Positions 27,192-35,804 of a stretch of 64,000 bases of DNA are shown piece by piece. Positions within the stretch are counted from its first letter, which is position 1. The number at the start of each line of letters is the position of its first letter. Below the pieces are notes generated by a model that was given only the letters and a program-made list of their open reading frames with translations, searched no databases and was not told the DNA's origin. The position numbers and the translations under genes were made by a program. This DNA comes from Salinibacter grassmerensis (GTDB lineage Bacteria > Bacteroidota > Rhodothermia > Rhodothermales > Salinibacteraceae): NCBI RefSeq assembly GCF_947077765.1, contig NZ_CAMTTF010000007.1, positions 1-64,000 of the forward strand, written 5' to 3'.

Positions 27192-28073
27192 ATGCTGCCG
27201 GACGCGCTCCGTGACGCGTTGGAGGAGCGACTCGACGCAACGATTGAGTCGGTGGTGTCCGTGAGTGGCGGATGCATCGCGAACGCGTGCCGCCTCGAAA
27301 CCGACGCCGCACCGTTTTTTCTAAAGTACGGCCCCGACGAGGTGGCGCGCACCTTTCCCGGCGAAGCCGCCGGCCTGGAGGCCCTCGGCGCGGCCGATAG
27401 TCCCCTCGTGGTGCCGTCCGTCCACGACACTGCGCCCGCCACCGATGCCCGCCCGGGATTTCTCGTCATGGAATGGGTCAACCCAGGGCGCGAGGGACGA
27501 CGCTTCTGGGACCGGTTTGGGGAGGGGCTTGCGGCCCTGCACCGCTACACCGCCGACGCGCACGGGTTCGACCAGGACAACTTTATCGGCCGTCTGCCGC
27601 AGTCGAATGCGTGGACCGACGACTGGCCCACCTTCTTTCGGGAGCAGCGGCTGGCGCCGCAGGTGGACATGGCGCGGGAGCGCAACCGGTGGCGCGACGG
27701 CTGGGGGGAGGCCCTTAGCACCCTCTACCGGCGCCTTCCGGACATTCTCCCCAAATCGCCCGAGCCGTCCGTCCTGCACGGCGATCTCTGGAAGGGCAAC
27801 TACATGGTGACCGCCGTCGGCGACCCGGCCCTCGTCGATCCCGCTACGTACTACGGCCACCGCGAGGCGGACCTGGCCATGACCGAGCTCTTCGGCGGGT
27901 ACGACGATCGCTTCTACGATGCCTACCGGTCGGCGTGGGGGCTGGCACCGGAATACGAGACGCGCCGCGATGTCTACAACCTGTACCATCTCATCAATCA
28001 CCTCAATCTCTTCGGGGGCGGCTACGCCGCACAGGTGGAGAAGACCCTCCGCCCCTTCAGCGAGCTGAAGTGA
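27192..28073 (+). CDS. Fructosamine/ribulosamine 3-kinase family protein
   Basis: The 293-residue protein kinase-like fold has an ATP lobe with SVSGGCIANACRLET and FFLKYG. GLAALHRYTADAHGFDQDNFIG is the substrate region, and HGDLWKGNYM (about 197-206) is the catalytic loop. VDPATYYGHREADLAMTELFGG is the DFG-equivalent region. It phosphorylates ketoamines on glycated protein or amino acids so that they break down. It is preceded by an LMW-PTP gene, a pairing reported for deglycation, and converges with the ferredoxin gene 8 bases on. Confidence 0.94.
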   Translation: MLPDALRDALEERLDATIESVVSVSGGCIANACRLETDAAPFFLKYGPDEVARTFPGEAAGLEALGAADSPLVVPSVHDTAPATDARPGFLVMEWVNPGREGRRFWDRFGEGLAALHRYTADAHGFDQDNFIGRLPQSNAWTDDWPTFFREQRLAPQVDMARERNRWRDGWGEALSTLYRRLPDILPKSPEPSVLHGDLWKGNYMVTAVGDPALVDPATYYGHREADLAMTELFGGYDDRFYDAYRSAWGLAPEYETRRDVYNLYHLINHLNLFGGGYAAQVEKTLRPFSELK

Positions 28074-28081
28074 TCGGGGAG

Positions 28082-28393
28082 CTACAGGCGGACGGTCATG
28101 TCGTGATCGACCGTCACGAGGCAGGAGAGGCGTCCCATGCCCATGCCGCTGAGCGTGCTGTCGAGGGCCTGTGTGGGAGGAGGGGCACCCTCCGTGATCT
28201 CGACCACGCACAGGCCACAGTGGCCCCGCCCCCCACAGTTGGCGACGTCCGTAACGGCATTGTGCGGCGAATGCCCATGACGACGCAGGGCCTGGCGTAG
28301 CGTGATGCCCGGCTCGACCTCGATCTCGTGCCGGCCGGTCTCGGTTTGTACCGTGATTGTATGGGTGTCGGTTGCGGAGGCGGTTATGCTCAT
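28082..28393 (-). CDS. 2Fe-2S ferredoxin
   Basis: The 103-residue ferredoxin has cluster ligands in the NCGGRGHCGLC stretch (a Cys-x5-Cys-x2-Cys pattern) and a fourth Cys in LSCLVTVDHDM. The spacing is closer to the adrenodoxin type than the plant type. Residues 10-45 give the usual beta-grasp start (TVQTETGRHEIEVEPG). It is the last gene of the crtI-blh-small protein run on the minus strand, 45 bases beyond the third gene. It may supply electrons to a carotenoid desaturase, oxygenase or ketolase, but this is inference from position. Confidence 0.9.
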   Translation of the reverse strand: MSITASATDTHTITVQTETGRHEIEVEPGITLRQALRRHGHSPHNAVTDVANCGGRGHCGLCVVEITEGAPPPTQALDSTLSGMGMGRLSCLVTVDHDMTVRL

Positions 28394-28438
28394 GTCAATG
28401 TGGCAAGTGGGCCGGTATGATGAGGGGGAGTGTGGGCG

Positions 28439-28663
28439 TCAGGCCACCGTCTCGCTGGGCGGATCGGCCAGCTGGTACTGGACCCGGCGGTACAGCAGGG
28501 TGGCGGCGGTGCCCCACAGGAGTGCCCCGAGGGGCGCGGCGCCCCACCACGAGAGGCCGGTGAGAATGTGGACGGCGTCGGCGAGGCCGGCGGCCACGAA
28601 CAGGAGGGCCACGGCGAAAATAATGGAGTCGCGGACGATGATCTGGTCGGCATCCATGGACAT
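28439..28663 (-). CDS. Small two-helix membrane protein in carotenoid operon
   Basis: The 74-residue protein is read from MSMDADQIIVRDSII and has two hydrophobic helices (about 10-30 and 38-56). It ends in a soluble tail, VQYQLADPPSETVA. The loop contains GLSWWGAAPLG. It lies 58 bases downstream of blh and 45 bases upstream of the ferredoxin. No family was recognised. Its position suggests an accessory role in carotenoid or retinal metabolism. Confidence 0.65.
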   Translation of the reverse strand: MSMDADQIIVRDSIIFAVALLFVAAGLADAVHILTGLSWWGAAPLGALLWGTAATLLYRRVQYQLADPPSETVA

Positions 28664-28721
28664 AAGCGCGGGGTCGGTTGAGCAGGCAGTCGATTCGAGG
28701 AGGGCGCAACGGAGGATGAGG

Positions 28722-29771
28722 CTACGGCACGTACCAGATGCCCCGTACCGGGTCCAGCCACTCTCCCACGACAATGTGGGGCAGCGCCAGAAGGCAGACG
28801 AAGATGGTGTAGAAGGCCACCGCCCCGCCGAGCAGCCCGGCGCCGCCCAGGGGGTTCGGGACGAGCACGTAGAAGCCAGCCATGAGCCCGAACGTGACGA
28901 GCGCCCCCACGACCATCGCCGCCCAGGTGAGGGGGAGCGACAACCGATCCGGCGCCGGGTCGTCGGAGGCGACGGCCGTGGTGCGGGCAGTCTGACGCAG
29001 GGTGTACCAGAGCGGAAAGTAGAGCCCCACCGCTAGCATCATGGGGACGAACGTGAAGTAGACAACCAGGAGCGTCGTCTCGGCAAAATCCGTGAGCCAG
29101 TCCTTTGACACTCCCCCGGTATACAGCCCCCCGCCGAGATGAGCCACGAGGGCGAGGCCGTAGACCGTGCCCACCGCCATCTGGACGTCCGAGAGGCGCG
29201 TGGTCAGCGGGAGGGGGCCCGCCGCGCCGAAAATATGCACCATGTAGGTGGAGAACGTGACGTAGACGCCGGGCCAGGCCAGCAACGGCACCAGCATGAT
29301 GGCGCCGCCCCGCACGAAGGCCGCCAGGCCGCGCTGCCACGACGACTGTAGGTGCTCGGTCCCGCACAGGGCATCCATCACCTTCACCCCGCCGTGCCCA
29401 CCCTTCACGACCGCCGTGGAGAAGGCCAACCCGAGCGCCACGACGGGTGCTACGAAGAAGAACCCCACGAAGCCGACGAGGAAGGCAAGGTACAGCACGA
29501 CGTACCGCAGGCTGAAGGAGACGCGGCGGTGGCGCAGGTTCTCAAAGTGCTCGTAGCCGCCGTGGGGCAGGTTGAGGGCCACCATTCCGATGAGGTACCC
29601 GATCATCTGGGCCTCCATCGACAGCGACACGTTGAGCAACGCCGCAAGGACTCCCCCGACGGCCAGGGCCCCAAGGGCGATGCGCGAGCCCCAGACGGCC
29701 AGGGCCGAGGGAGACCGCGCCGAGGCCTGACTTCGGGGGGCAGAAACCGACGAAGCAGCGGGAGTAGCCAT
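28722..29771 (-). CDS. blh: Brp/Blh-family beta-carotene 15,15'-dioxygenase
   Basis: The 349-residue membrane protein has about eight helices and the histidines typical of Brp/Blh enzymes. These are LNLPHGGYEHFENL (about 69-82), KGGHGGVKV (about 125), YFPLWYTLR and the C-terminal ALPHIVVGEW. Those histidines bind the iron that cleaves beta-carotene to two retinals, the chromophore for rhodopsins. It lies 38 bases downstream of crtI on the same strand. An N-terminal acid-poor linker of about 25 residues precedes helix 1. No rhodopsin gene is in the window. Confidence 0.86.
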   Translation of the reverse strand: MATPAASSVSAPRSQASARSPSALAVWGSRIALGALAVGGVLAALLNVSLSMEAQMIGYLIGMVALNLPHGGYEHFENLRHRRVSFSLRYVVLYLAFLVGFVGFFFVAPVVALGLAFSTAVVKGGHGGVKVMDALCGTEHLQSSWQRGLAAFVRGGAIMLVPLLAWPGVYVTFSTYMVHIFGAAGPLPLTTRLSDVQMAVGTVYGLALVAHLGGGLYTGGVSKDWLTDFAETTLLVVYFTFVPMMLAVGLYFPLWYTLRQTARTTAVASDDPAPDRLSLPLTWAAMVVGALVTFGLMAGFYVLVPNPLGGAGLLGGAVAFYTIFVCLLALPHIVVGEWLDPVRGIWYVP

Positions 29772-29809
29772 GGGGTCGAAAAAGCCACTTGATAGAATGA
29801 GTGAGACGT

Positions 29810-31285
29810 TTACGCGGGAGTGTCGGCGGCAATGGCCTGGGCGGTCTGCCTGCCACTAATCAGGCACATCGGCAGTCCGACGCCCGGCTGCGTGTCCGCG
29901 CCGGTGTAGTAGAGCCCCGACGCCGTGTCGGCCCGGTGGCTGGGGCGCAGGGGCCCGGTTTGCCACAGCGTGTGGGCGAGGCCGAGGGCGTTGCCCTTCG
30001 GCTGCCCGAAGTGGTTCGCGAAATCCGAGACGCAGGCCTCGTGCTCCACCGTGATGCGGCCCCGAAGGTCGACCGCGTGCTCGGCCAGATCCTCCAGCAC
30101 CCGCTCACGCATCCAGGCGCGACGGGCCGGGCCATCGTTGAGCCCCGGCGCGATGGGGACCAGAATGAACACCGAGTGGTGGCCATCCGGGGCGTAGGAG
30201 CGGTCGGTCTTGGAGGGGACGTGAATGTAGTAGGATGGATCGGTGGGCCACCCGGGCTCGTCAAAAATCGCCTCGAAGTGCGCGTCCCAGTCCACGGGAA
30301 GCACGAGAGAGTGGTGGCGCAGTGGCTCGACATCCCCCTCTACGCCCAAGTAGAGCAGATAGGCGGACGGGCCGTAGGTCTGCCCGTTCCAGTATTCGTC
30401 GCCGTGATCACGCTGGTCGGGCGGGAGGAGCGTCCGTTCCACGTGGGCCGGGCTGGCATTCGCCACGACGCAGTCGGACGTCCGCGTGTCGCCATTCGTG
30501 CGCACCCGCACGCCACCGCCGTTCGAGTGGATTCTCGAAACGGGGGTATTGCGCTTGAGGGTGACCCCGAGGCGATCGGCGAGGTCCACGAGGGCGTCGA
30601 CGAGTACCTGCATTCCGCCCATCGGGTGGAAGACGCCTTGGTTGAAGTCGACGTGGCTCATCAGCGTGTACAGGGCGGGCGTGTTGTAGGGGGAGCCCCC
30701 GAGGAAGACCAGCTTGTACTCCAGAAGCTGGCGCAGCTTCGGGTGCTCCACATACCCCTTGACGTGACGGTCCATCGGGCGAAGCAAGGGCAGGGCCCAT
30801 GCCGCGCGCAGGACGTCCCCGTCGAGCCAATCTCGCAGGCGAGCCCGGCGGGGATAGACAAACCGGTCCATCGCGAGCTCATAAACGGCCTCGGCGTGGT
30901 CGAGGTACTGGTGGAATGCATCGGCCGCCCCATCCTCGTAGGCCTCGAGCTTTGGCGCGAGGGCGTCCGGGTCGGCCGGCACGTCGAGCCGGTCGCCGTC
31001 CTTCCAGAAGACGCGGTAGCTCGGGTCGAGGCGCTCCAGGTCGTACGCCGCGTCGACGGACGTGCCGAATGACTCAAAGAAGCGCTCGAACACCTCCGGC
31101 ATCAGGTACCACGACGGCCCCGAGTCGAAGCGAAACCCGCCGGACTTAAACGAGCCGGCTACGCCTCCAAGGTTGTCGTGTTGTTCGAGCAGGGTGACGT
31201 CGGCCCCGGCGTCGGCGAGGTGACACGCTGCCGAGAGTCCGCCGATGCCGCCGCCCACGATGGATACAGAGTCCGGAACCGTCAT
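29810..31285 (-). CDS. crtI: Phytoene desaturase family protein
   Basis: The 491-residue protein starts MTVPDSVSIVGGGIGGLSAACHLADAG, the FAD-binding signature, with VTLLEQHDNLGGVAGSF as second strand. GGMQVLVDALVDLADRLG and the C-terminal YYTGADTQPGVGLPMCLISGRQTAQAI are CrtI-type motifs. It introduces the double bonds that lead from phytoene to lycopene. It heads the minus-strand run crtI-blh-small protein-ferredoxin. No crtB or cyclase was found nearby. Confidence 0.93.
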   Translation of the reverse strand: MTVPDSVSIVGGGIGGLSAACHLADAGADVTLLEQHDNLGGVAGSFKSGGFRFDSGPSWYLMPEVFERFFESFGTSVDAAYDLERLDPSYRVFWKDGDRLDVPADPDALAPKLEAYEDGAADAFHQYLDHAEAVYELAMDRFVYPRRARLRDWLDGDVLRAAWALPLLRPMDRHVKGYVEHPKLRQLLEYKLVFLGGSPYNTPALYTLMSHVDFNQGVFHPMGGMQVLVDALVDLADRLGVTLKRNTPVSRIHSNGGGVRVRTNGDTRTSDCVVANASPAHVERTLLPPDQRDHGDEYWNGQTYGPSAYLLYLGVEGDVEPLRHHSLVLPVDWDAHFEAIFDEPGWPTDPSYYIHVPSKTDRSYAPDGHHSVFILVPIAPGLNDGPARRAWMRERVLEDLAEHAVDLRGRITVEHEACVSDFANHFGQPKGNALGLAHTLWQTGPLRPSHRADTASGLYYTGADTQPGVGLPMCLISGRQTAQAIAADTPA

Positions 31286-31342
31286 GACTGTTGGGGCACA
31301 GGGCGAGTCAACGTAGCACTATCTCTATTCGTGAGCGAAAAG

Positions 31343-31376
31343 AGAAGATTCCCTATTTCGGATAAAAACATCTTCT
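31343..31376. promoter_or_regulatory. Inverted repeat, candidate operator in crtI/ric intergenic region
   Basis: Perfect 7-bp arms AGAAGAT (31343-31349) and ATCTTCT (31370-31376) frame a 20-base spacer rich in A/T. The outer half resembles the NsrR half-site AAGATGYATTT (AAGATGTTTTT on the minus strand, 10 of 11). It lies 137 bases before the ric start and about 58 bases before crtI. An Rrf2-family regulator is encoded at the end of the downstream operon. Binding is inferred. Confidence 0.35.
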
Positions 31377-31512
31377 TTTCTCCAATGTAACGTTCTGCGC
31401 TGGGGAAGGCCGGACTCCTCCATTACCCTTGGTAGTGACGCGTCGGCGTCCACCCCGGCCGGTACTGCTTCTGAGTCTCGTTCGTGATCCTTCTCACCAT
31501 TGCTTCTGGCCC

Positions 31513-32217
31513 ATGCCTGCTCTTTCTCCCGATACGCTTCTCGTCGAACTCGTGGGCGAGCGGCCCACCCGTGCCCAAATTCTCGACCGACTCGGCATCG
31601 ACTGTGGCCGGGAGGGCGGACGTTCCCTTGCGGAGGCCTGCGAGGCGCAGGGGCTTGATCCCGAAACGGTCGCCCGGATGCTTGACGTTGCGGTCGAGAC
31701 GGTGCCCACCGAGGGCAATCCGGAGTGGCTATCCGTGTCCCTGCCAGACCTACTGGACCACATCCAGTCGACCCATCACGACTACCTGCGGCGGGCCCTG
31801 CCCCGCCTCGCAAGGCGCCTGAAAACGGCGGGCCGGGACCTGGGCGCGGAGACGCCCCAGTGGCTCGGGCGGGTCCAGGAGGCCTTCCAAATGCTAAGGT
31901 CCGACCTGGTGGCGGGCCTCCGGCGGGAGGAAGAGTACGTGTTTCCCGCCCTGCGGACCGTGGCCGAGGGACGGGTGCTGCCCGACGGGTCCACGCCGAG
32001 CCAAAAGACGCTCCGGGACATGGCCGACCAGCACGACGACACGAGGACGAAGCTGGAGCGTCTCCGAGCGCTGACGGACGGGTATCAGGCGCCGGAGGGG
32101 GCGGACCAGGTCCTCCAAGACGTACTGAATCGACTGCACGAGCTGGAGGTGGACCTGCGCCGACACCTCCACGAAGAGCTCCACATCCTCCTTCCCCGCG
32201 CGGAATCGCTCCTCTGA
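31513..32217 (+). CDS. ric: RIC-family (ScdA/YtfE) di-iron iron-sulfur cluster repair protein
   Basis: The 234-residue protein is read from MPALSPDTLLVELVGE. An N-terminal DUF542-type domain has GIDCGREGGRSLAEACEAQGLD (cysteine/glycine motif). A hemerythrin-like helix bundle follows, with candidate iron ligands in DHIQSTHHDYL, REEEYVFPAL, ADQHDDTRTK and HLHEELHILLP. These proteins repair or protect Fe-S clusters damaged by nitric oxide and oxidants. The downstream hemN, nitronate monooxygenase and Rrf2 genes on the same strand fit a nitrosative-stress operon. Confidence 0.92.
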   Translation: MPALSPDTLLVELVGERPTRAQILDRLGIDCGREGGRSLAEACEAQGLDPETVARMLDVAVETVPTEGNPEWLSVSLPDLLDHIQSTHHDYLRRALPRLARRLKTAGRDLGAETPQWLGRVQEAFQMLRSDLVAGLRREEEYVFPALRTVAEGRVLPDGSTPSQKTLRDMADQHDDTRTKLERLRALTDGYQAPEGADQVLQDVLNRLHELEVDLRRHLHEELHILLPRAESLL

Positions 32218-32260: not shown

Positions 32261-33643
32261 ATGAATGTTGACCTCGATCTCCTTCGCCAGTACAACCAGT
32301 CGCTTCCCCGCTACACGAGCTACCCGACTGCTCCACACTTTGGAGAGGCCGTGGGGCCGGAGACCTTCCGGGCGGAGGTGTGGCGTGCAAACACGTCGTC
32401 GCCCGAAGCGCCGCTGTCGCTATACCTGCACCTGCCCTTCTGCCGACAGCTCTGCTACTACTGCGGGTGCCACATGAAGGTGACGCACGATCCGGAGCGC
32501 ATCGCGAAGTACCTCCGCTACCTGAAGCGCGAGATTGACCTGCTGGCCCCAATGCTGTCGTCGGCGCGGCCCGTCACCCAGGTGCACTGGGGCGGTGGCA
32601 CCCCCACCCTGCTGTCTCCGGAGCAAATTCGGGGGTTGGGACGGCATCTCCGCGACCGCTTCCGGGTGGCGCCCGACGCCGAGATCAGCATCGAGGCCGA
32701 CCCCCGCGGCCTGACGGAAGACCACATCGTGGCGGCCCGCGAGATCGGGGTGAATCGTCTGAGCCTGGGGGTGCAGTCCTTCGACCCCACGGTGCAGGAG
32801 GCCATCAACCGGGTGCAGCCGGAGCGGCTCACGCGAACCGCCGTGCAGTGGGCCCGAGACCATGGCATCGACAGCGTCAACCTCGACCTGGTGTACGGCC
32901 TTCCCCACCAGACGCCCGACACGATGGCCGAGACGCTCGGCGGGGTTGTTGATCTCGACCCGGACCGGATTGCGCTGTACAGCTATGCGCACGTCCCGTC
33001 CGTGCTGGAGCACCAGCGCCTCATCCCGGAAGAGGCGCTCCCGGCCCCGGCCGTTCGGCTGGGGCTCTTCAAGCAGGCGCTCGAGACGCTGACGACGAGT
33101 GCTGGCTACCGGTTCATTGGGCTGGACCACTTCGCGAAGCCGGACGAGGAGCTGGCGCTCGCGCAGGACAATGGCACACTCCGTCGGAATTTTCAGGGCT
33201 ACTCCACCCGCGCAGGGGCCGACGTCTACGCCTTCGGCCTCTCCGGCATTCACCAGCTCTCGGGGCTCTACGCCCAGAATACGAAGACCCTGCGCACGTA
33301 CTACGACCAGATCGACCAAGACGAGCTGACCGTCTACCGGGGCTATCGACCGACCCCGGAGGATCGCCTGCGGCGCCACGTCATCATGCAGCTCATGTGC
33401 AACGCCGAGGTGCAGAAGGCGGCGGTCGAGGCTCGGTTTGAGGTCGACTTCGACGCCCACTTCGGCGAGGCCCTCGACCGCCTGCACCCGCTGGAGCAGG
33501 ACGGGCTCGTCGCGCTGAGCCCAGACGCGATCCGTGTGCGTCCGCCGGGGCGCCTGCTGGTCCGCAACGTGGCCGCGGCCTTCGACGCGTACTTGCACGA
33601 CGCCGCTCCAGACACGCAGCCCGCCTATTCCGACAGCGTTTGA
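32261..33643 (+). CDS. hemN: Oxygen-independent coproporphyrinogen III oxidase
   Basis: The 460-residue radical SAM enzyme has CRQLCYYCGC (Cys61, Cys65, Cys68, Cys70), the HemN-type CxxxCxxCxC cluster motif. HWGGGTPTLLSPEQI, then the SLGVQSFDPTVQEAINRVQP segment and the C-terminal HemN domain with GLDHFAKPDEELA follow. It converts coproporphyrinogen III to protoporphyrinogen IX without oxygen, for haem made under low oxygen. It is 43 bases downstream of ric. Length is normal for HemN rather than HemW. Confidence 0.95.
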   Translation: MNVDLDLLRQYNQSLPRYTSYPTAPHFGEAVGPETFRAEVWRANTSSPEAPLSLYLHLPFCRQLCYYCGCHMKVTHDPERIAKYLRYLKREIDLLAPMLSSARPVTQVHWGGGTPTLLSPEQIRGLGRHLRDRFRVAPDAEISIEADPRGLTEDHIVAAREIGVNRLSLGVQSFDPTVQEAINRVQPERLTRTAVQWARDHGIDSVNLDLVYGLPHQTPDTMAETLGGVVDLDPDRIALYSYAHVPSVLEHQRLIPEEALPAPAVRLGLFKQALETLTTSAGYRFIGLDHFAKPDEELALAQDNGTLRRNFQGYSTRAGADVYAFGLSGIHQLSGLYAQNTKTLRTYYDQIDQDELTVYRGYRPTPEDRLRRHVIMQLMCNAEVQKAAVEARFEVDFDAHFGEALDRLHPLEQDGLVALSPDAIRVRPPGRLLVRNVAAAFDAYLHDAAPDTQPAYSDSV

Positions 33644-35200: not shown

Positions 35201-35315
35201 CGGGGGCTCAGGCGTCCTGGATGGGGAACGCTGACAGAGTGGACCGGTGCGTATCATGTTATGCACCCGTCCCGTGTCGACTCCGCAGCGCTCCTTTCAC
35301 GGCCCCAACGTCCAG

Positions 35316-35804
35316 ATGCTGCTCTCAAAAAGCTGTGAGTACGGATTGCGCGCGATGCTGTACCTGGGGACCCTCGATCAGGAGGCAGCAGAGGCGGATG
35401 AGGGCTCCGGCGCCACCCGTGAGTACGTCTCGATCCAGACCGTCAGCGACGACCTGGAAATCGGCTTCTCGTTCCTGACGAAGGTCTTCCAGCAGCTCAA
35501 CGATGCGGGGCTTCTGACCTCGAAGCGTGGCCCGGGCGGTGGGGTAGCCCTCACCCGTGCGCCGGGCGCTACCAGTCTGTACGAAATCGTGGTGGCCATC
35601 GACGGGAATGACCTGTTTCAGGAGTGCGTGCTGGGCCTGCCGGGCTGCGGGGAGGCCGAGCCGTGCCCCCTCCACGAGCACTGGACCGAGGAGCGCGACC
35701 GCATGAAGACAACCTTTCAGCGGACGACGCTGAGCGAGGTGCCGGACGTGCGTCTCACGCCGTTCATCGACGACCTGGCGGAGGCCGAAGAGGCCTCGAC
35801 GTAG
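35316..35804 (+). CDS. Rrf2-family transcriptional regulator with Cys triad
   Basis: The 162-residue protein starts at MLLSKSCEYGLRAMLYL; a longer frame starts at 35247 but adds a poorly conserved leader. The winged helix (residues 1-85, with LTSKRGPGGGVALTRAP) is followed by ECVLGLPGCGEAEPCPLH. Cys104, Cys111 and Cys117 give the IscR/NsrR-type ligand set for an Fe-S cluster. It probably senses NO, oxygen or Fe-S status and controls its own operon. It is the last gene of the ric-hemN-NMO run. Confidence 0.9.
   Translation: MLLSKSCEYGLRAMLYLGTLDQEAAEADEGSGATREYVSIQTVSDDLEIGFSFLTKVFQQLNDAGLLTSKRGPGGGVALTRAPGATSLYEIVVAIDGNDLFQECVLGLPGCGEAEPCPLHEHWTEERDRMKTTFQRTTLSEVPDVRLTPFIDDLAEAEEAST

Follow-up and report, generated by a model that had tools for sequence, protein, structure and literature searches.

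In a 64,000-nucleotide stretch of Salinibacter grassmerensis DNA (the window, part of contig C7 of a source genome of 3.78 Mb), four minus-strand genes encode a CrtI/CrtD-type desaturase (crtI), a Brp/Blh-family membrane protein (Brp), a small membrane protein and a 2Fe-2S ferredoxin. We consider it probable that the core of this operon is a haloarchaeal-derived module of two genes leading from carotenoid to retinal, made up of the desaturase and a beta-carotene-cleaving Brp with a rebuilt active site, and that the two small genes joined it within the genus. The operon is the Salinibacter version of a known haloarchaeal pair. This reading starts from what was seen in the genomes compared, namely the gene pair and its linkage, the place of Brp in the tree, its class signature and its co-occurrence with an ordinary Blh. 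By analogy, the Salinibacter proteins would act like the bifunctional desaturase D1086 of Haloarcula japonica and the retinal-making Brp of Halobacterium.

The window Brp scored 231.1 bits against PF15461 (BCD, cut-off 28) and 188.1 bits against TIGR03753 (Brp/Blh, cut-off 95.25), and the closest outside relatives that we found are haloarchaeal, with 46-53% identity. It was present in 11 of the 27 genomes of the family (ten from its own genus plus G148) and, in a sample of the phylum, in 2 of 148 genomes, both within the genus. The desaturase adjoined Brp in all ten genus genomes that hold Brp. In a Brp/Blh tree of 82 non-redundant rows, seven rows from the genus joined six haloarchaeal rows (100/95) inside other haloarchaeal Brp and the native Blh was set apart (100/100); the G148 copy branched deeper, and some deeper forks were weaker. 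An earlier proposal holds that blh moved laterally between haloarchaea and this group of bacteria (PMC5877348), and a pair of desaturase and Brp has been described as a retinal gene cluster of Haloarcula japonica (PMC11946383).

Substitution of His21, His78, His188 or His192 by Ala cuts the activity of the Blh from marine bacterium 66A03 below 5% (PMC9227343). At these positions, which were mapped by motif and spacing, the window Brp carries His, Lys, Tyr and Gln. The native Salinibacter Blh has the same PH-YH spacing (57) and the same spacing within WHxLGH (4) as 66A03, with a middle spacing of 122 versus 110. The original prediction of a retinal-forming oxygenase thus holds for the Brp/Blh family, but the protein belongs to a class without three of the four essential Blh histidines. 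We compared 170 rows from 18 haloarchaeal genomes, a 116-genome haloarchaeal sample (79 with a match) and Salinibacteraceae; 61 carried Lys-Tyr (K class), 108 had His at all three positions (H class), and one split match fell in neither. The classes were defined by Lys-Tyr and His-His-His at the three positions, and those counts hold by definition. What does not follow from the definition is that just 1 of 170 rows fits neither class, that Gln (60 of 61) and His21 (58 of 61) accompany Lys-Tyr, and that the whole-sequence tree gives the same split, in which all 43 non-redundant Lys-Tyr rows, and no others, lie beyond one 100/100 branch with a length of 1.09. The K clade is composed of haloarchaea and Salinibacteraceae; His21 is kept in 58 and a C-terminal IWYVP ending in 57 of its 61 rows, and the 108 ordinary Blh rows keep all four essential histidines. 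With Lys-Tyr-Gln, the IWYVP ending and its position in that one clade, the window Brp has every mark of the haloarchaeal K class. Among clade members the substituted residues show no drift, a pattern that favors a new function over decay. In Halobacterium, the K-class gene is brp itself, adjoining bat and bop (read by eye), and the Lys-Tyr-Gln signature tells Brp from Blh in line with the naming there. As to the counts, the 61 K rows comprise 59 different sequences, the native Blh of G161 stands twice among the H rows with different starts, and G216, below the cut-off, is unclassified; the split match L326 (G236, HHRH) is in neither class in the alignment count and H in the co-occurrence count, where the split match L327 (G247) was also counted as H. 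Our literature search found no statement of this class split, most subscription papers being outside its reach, and the split is the part of this work worth following.

In the 116-genome haloarchaeal sample, 34 genomes had both classes, 43 had ordinary Blh only and one (G209, 1.9 Mb) had the K class only (Fisher p 9e-7, ignoring kinship), so that ordinary Blh accompanies the K class in 34 of 35 genomes. In the retrieved flanks, which spanned about 1.5-2 kb and in a few cases more, a crtI-like gene accompanied 36 of the 48 K-class genes (23 divergent and 13 in the same direction) versus none of the 89 others. The window desaturase scored 460.7 bits against TIGR02734 (crtI_fam, cut-off 238.1), which places it in the CrtI family, and it is 61% identical to the D1086 gene of Haloarcula japonica at locus L065; desaturases sharing a locus with haloarchaeal Brp are 56-61% identical to it. 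The four d1086 primers tried all map to the L065 desaturase, three within the gene and one just past it, and neither of two c0507 primers matches there. D1086 is a bifunctional CrtI/CrtD encoded beside a brp homologue (PMC11946383).

The essential Blh histidines are missing from Brp, yet Halobacterium Brp produces retinal, and resolving this puzzle would show how a carotenoid-cleaving membrane enzyme works with a different metal site. In beta-carotene-making E. coli, brp of Halobacterium NRC-1 yielded 0.8 mg/L retinal at 24 h and 0.4 mg/L at 48 h and blh yielded 2.2 mg/L at 24 h, with a trace from N. pharaonis brp2 and none without such a gene (PMC3160355). The NRC-1 brp forward primer from that paper matches Halobacterium locus L066 where its K-class gene begins, and the reverse primer reads GIWYVP followed by a stop, the K-class ending; hence, we placed NRC-1 brp in the K class. 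The reverse primer for N. pharaonis brp2 reads LWRPGA, not the K-class ending. Deletion of Halobacterium brp raised beta-carotene and lowered retinal (PMC2253796). Judged from the E. coli and deletion reports, Brp appears to function as an enzyme, but through an active site unlike that of Blh: with three essential histidines replaced and Halobacterium Brp active, Brp would have to cleave beta-carotene with a rebuilt site. It may well be, although we stop just short of favoring it, that Brp represents a second, chemically distinct class of beta-carotene-cleaving enzyme, whose iron site was rebuilt after the split from haloarchaeal Blh, which has a CrtI/D partner and which reached Salinibacter as part of the pair. 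On that reading, histidines would have been lost for Lys123, Tyr256 and Gln260 and His211 gained, with His70, His75, His332 and Glu74 kept as possible ligands; in a bolder form, Lys123 might bind the product retinal as a Schiff base and then pass it on to opsin. The AlphaFold models were confident for both classes, with mean pLDDT values of 88.6 and 92.1. No solved fold matched either model at E 0.001 (best E 0.64 and 0.49), and no solved relative of Brp was found by sequence at E up to 1.

The source genome holds a second set of retinal genes. An additional CrtI (L195) scored 632.7 bits on TIGR02734, and a CrtO-like protein, a lycopene cyclase domain protein and a rhodopsin are encoded in a row on contig C3 (L193:7557-10936). 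Because the lycopene cyclase domain protein is encoded elsewhere, beside the rhodopsin, the crtI-brp operon is not a complete phytoene-to-retinal route. The predicted pathway from phytoene to retinal survives as a conserved pair of desaturase and Brp, but it is incomplete, and a second CrtI and an ordinary Blh are encoded elsewhere. Two PF15461 copies were found in each of the 11 Brp-bearing genomes, and one copy in 13 of the 16 remaining genomes of the family. All eleven second copies in Brp-bearing Salinibacteraceae were counted and six were classified by sequence (L160, L161, L163, L187, L188 and L189); these six are ordinary Blh at other genomic places. With ordinary Blh and a second CrtI elsewhere, the operon is not the only retinal route of its genome. 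In the mechanism that we propose, the CrtI/CrtD-type desaturase would make lycopene and probably carry out 3,4-desaturation too, cyclization of lycopene would fall to a protein from another locus, the probable candidate being the lycopene cyclase domain protein of the rhodopsin cluster, and Brp, a membrane enzyme, would cleave beta-carotene to retinal. Brp would be related to haloarchaeal Blh but diverged from it, with Lys, Tyr and Gln in place of three essential histidines, and the module would supplement the native CrtI and ordinary Blh, probably raising the retinal supply. In G167, an extra rhodopsin gene (L127:1456-2163; PF01036, 94.9 bits) lies about 4 kb from the crtI-brp operon, flanked by an NMO-like gene and an Rrf2-like regulator (both named by eye).

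The two small genes probably have a different history. The ferredoxin belongs to Fer2 (PF00111, cut-off 21), with Cys at 53, 59, 62 and 91; its best NCBIfam match is NqrF (28.9 bits, cut-off 295), and four weak PDB matches were obtained (NDH subunit, Ferredoxin, Ferredoxin VI and Terpredoxin; E 0.0016-0.0048). In adrenodoxin-type ferredoxins, the last Cys stands about 36-37 residues after the third, and here the distance is 28. Given this Cys spacing and the weak matches, the original label of adrenodoxin-like was a loose one. The small protein matches no Pfam or NCBIfam family above cut-off, in agreement with its earlier description as of unknown family. Its hydrophobicity profile shows a single strong stretch, where 19-residue windows beginning at positions 5-20 score above 1.6, and another that is weak, reaching about 1.2, so that of the two helices proposed for it one is clear and the other not firm. 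The small protein adjoined brp in seven of the ten genus genomes with the pair (G000, G147, G158, G159, G161, G167 and G168), and the ferredoxin adjoined both in five (G000, G147, G158, G161 and G167). In G160 (Salinivenus lutea), G162 and G166 the pair stands without either gene: in S. lutea, the small protein is absent and the ends of brp and the next, convergent gene lie two bases apart, and in G162 and G166 the pair has a different gene setting. S. iranica (G159) retains the small protein. A search of 64 haloarchaeal loci with flanks of 1.5-10 kb detected neither gene (one match with E 0.85), and neither lies beside brp on the 8.7-kb contig of G148, where little sequence follows brp. The outcome named beforehand as fatal to a partner role, no conserved linkage in relatives, is thus contradicted within the genus and borne out in haloarchaea, and for neither gene did linkage to brp or crtI extend beyond close relatives. 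Two candidate explanations were accordingly rejected, namely that either gene is a generally conserved partner and that either came from haloarchaea together with the pair.

Genome G148 offers a view of where the ferredoxin may have come from. Its brp lies on contig C113, and its nearest ferredoxin (54%) lies on C23 in the order NMO, ThiO, hemN, SDR, ferredoxin (hemN identified by its 66% identity to the window hemN, the other genes by eye). From the gene order in this one genome, the ferredoxin likely stood in the hemN locus before, or independently of, the pair. Both small genes were most likely added to the module within the genus, and the ferredoxin probably came from the hemN neighborhood with its own job. 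Relatives of the small protein are found beside unrelated genes in G148 and G149 (L097:1468-1680, 44%; L098:305-505, 34%). A paralogous ferredoxin, 35-42% identical to that of the window, occurs in partly conserved clusters of family members (L085, L086, L087 and L088), three of which also hold a FAD protein and a small membrane protein (by eye).

Several points weigh against the reading of the operon as a retinal module later joined by two small genes. The desaturase scored 638.7 bits on NF058655 (CrtID), 1.3 bits short of the cut-off of 640, on which the L065 desaturase (D1086, without its first residues) scored 697.6. The literature searched yielded no experiment on Salinibacter CrtI/D or on Brp inside Salinibacter. 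The NRC-1 brp reverse primer as typed has no exact match in L066, which is from another strain than NRC-1. The hemN argument for the ferredoxin comes from the single genome G148, and in a small sample the ferredoxin was present in all five pair genomes with at least two rhodopsins and in none of the five with one. This association is not confined to one lineage, because G167 branches apart from the ruber-type rows in the Brp tree. Salinibacter ruber SRU_0742 is probably the orthologue of the window brp, and SRU_2210 that of the native blh, going by size and by map order in G147, where they are placed by SRU locus-tag order. The sizes are 34.7 kDa for BlhSR (PMC7698207) and 36.8 kDa for the brp orthologue L002, and SRU_0742, named 'brp', gave mRNA but no visible protein and no retinal in E. 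coli (PMC7698207). This inactivity, together with the former description of Brp as a light sensor (PMC2020435), would suit a Brp without catalytic activity in Salinibacter: such a pseudoenzyme would bind carotene or retinal and assist the ordinary Blh, or act as a retinal sensor, perhaps via Lys123. Such a protein would also fit the replacement of three of four essential histidines, the lack of drift in the replacements and the near-constant company of ordinary Blh (34 of 35 sampled haloarchaeal K-class genomes). Speaking against it, Peck in 2001 is said to have found that deletion of blh alone leaves bacteriorhodopsin undiminished in liquid medium. The histidine loss had first suggested a dead pseudoenzyme, a reading made less likely by the retinal that NRC-1 Brp forms on its own in E. 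coli (PMC3160355); as brp deletion also raises beta-carotene and lowers retinal (PMC2253796), we consider a non-catalytic Brp unlikely.

It is also rather unlikely that the desaturase serves mainly salinixanthin, by 3',4'-desaturation, and not retinal. Salinixanthin has a 3',4'-double bond, and the source genome already carries another CrtI. D1086 has both CrtI and CrtD activity (PMC11946383), which suits this alternative, but among haloarchaeal loci, this desaturase type was a neighbor of Brp in 36 of 48 cases and never of ordinary Blh (0 of 89). More doubtful still is a role of the ferredoxin and the small protein as true Brp partners recruited within the genus, one supplying electrons that keep the unusual metal centre reduced and the other assisting membrane assembly. 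Such a role is favored by their shared direction and gaps of 45-58 bases, by linkage of the small protein in seven and of the ferredoxin in five of the ten genomes with the pair, by purifying selection on both, by the ferredoxin's association with several rhodopsins, and by the failure of S. ruber Brp expressed alone to give protein in E. coli (PMC7698207). Against these stand the three genomes with the pair and neither gene, the 64 haloarchaeal loci with neither, the small-protein homologues beside unrelated genes in G148 and G149, and the G148 ferredoxin near hemN, not brp. NRC-1 Brp works in E. coli without them (PMC3160355), though E. coli has its own ferredoxins; since Halobacterium Brp alone made retinal there, neither small gene is needed for the Halobacterium reaction. 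The partner role suggested in the original prediction thus fares poorly, with partial linkage in the genus and none in haloarchaea. The retinal module with a catalytic Brp, joined by the small genes within the genus, remains our preferred reading.

Table 1 Genes of the crtI-brp operon and codons of interest in brp (window coordinates)
Feature	Position	Strand	Details
crtI/crtD-type desaturase	29810..31285	-	491 aa; TIGR02734 and NF058655 scores; 61% identity to L065 gene
brp, Brp/Blh-family membrane protein, Lys-Tyr-Gln (K) class	28722..29771	-	349 aa; PF15461, TIGR03753, alignment, tree
Brp Lys123 codon (Blh His78 position)	29403..29405	-	Lys in 61/61 K-class rows; His in 108/108 H-class rows
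Brp Tyr256 codon (Blh His188 position)	29004..29006	-	Tyr in 61/61 K-class rows; His in 108/108 H-class rows
Brp Gln260 codon (Blh His192 position)	28992..28994	-	Gln in 60/61 K-class rows (one Gly); His in 108/108 H-class rows
Brp His211 codon (K-class-typical histidine)	29139..29141	-	His in 60/61 K-class rows; H class mostly Thr, Ser, Ala, Val
Small membrane protein	28439..28663	-	74 aa; no Pfam/NCBIfam family above cut-off; dN/dS 0.07-0.29
2Fe-2S ferredoxin (Fer2)	28082..28393	-	103 aa; PF00111 30.7 bits; C-x5-C-x2-C-x28-C; dN/dS 0.14-0.23

The open reading frames of the four genes are separated by 38, 58 and 45 bases, exactly as predicted. Codon comparison of the window copies with up to eight genomes of the genus revealed purifying selection on all four (dN/dS 0.09-0.18 for the two enzymes; Table 1 for the others), which marks the small protein and the ferredoxin as real genes. 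No terminator above chance was detected between the genes, the single terminator-like match in 27900-31600 lying inside brp at chance level, and a search for inverted repeats gave nothing usable. We infer that the four genes are co-transcribed. Divergent from the operon are genes for a RIC/ScdA-like iron-sulfur repair hemerythrin protein (31513-32217; below the NCBIfam cut-off) and hemN (32261-33643), and these neighbors hint at control by low oxygen or nitric oxide. An Rrf2-type regulator is encoded at 35247-35804, about 4 kb from crtI, and such a regulator adjoins crtI in G160 (L058:1-228) and G162 (L077:12602-13114). An Rrf2-type regulator may control the crtI-brp pair.

The closest known counterpart is crtI/crtD (d1086)-brp (c1158) of Haloarcula japonica, which shares both genes with the Salinibacter pair (over the aligned region, 61% identity for the desaturase and 52% for Brp) and has a Brp of the K class, like that of the window (L065/L216). 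The Haloarcula japonica pair is divergent, whereas the Salinibacter pair is co-directional with two further genes behind it, and Salinibacter differs in being a bacterium with another Blh and CrtI. In the bop-brp-bat cluster of Halobacterium, brp is likewise of the K class (L066/L224 and L069/L226; bat and bop named by eye), but no crtI-like gene lies within the retrieved flanks, unlike in Salinibacter. The Blh of marine bacterium 66A03, a beta-carotene 15,15'-dioxygenase, belongs to the same family (PF15461, TIGR03753) as the ordinary Blh here; where it has the essential His78, His188 and His192, the window Brp has Lys, Tyr and Gln (PMC9227343), and Halobacterium Brp is described in the literature as forming the same product as 66A03 Blh. 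Within Salinibacter ruber, the two types also differ in E. coli, where SRU_2210 (Blh) was active and SRU_0742 (Brp), which gave no visible protein, was not (PMC7698207).

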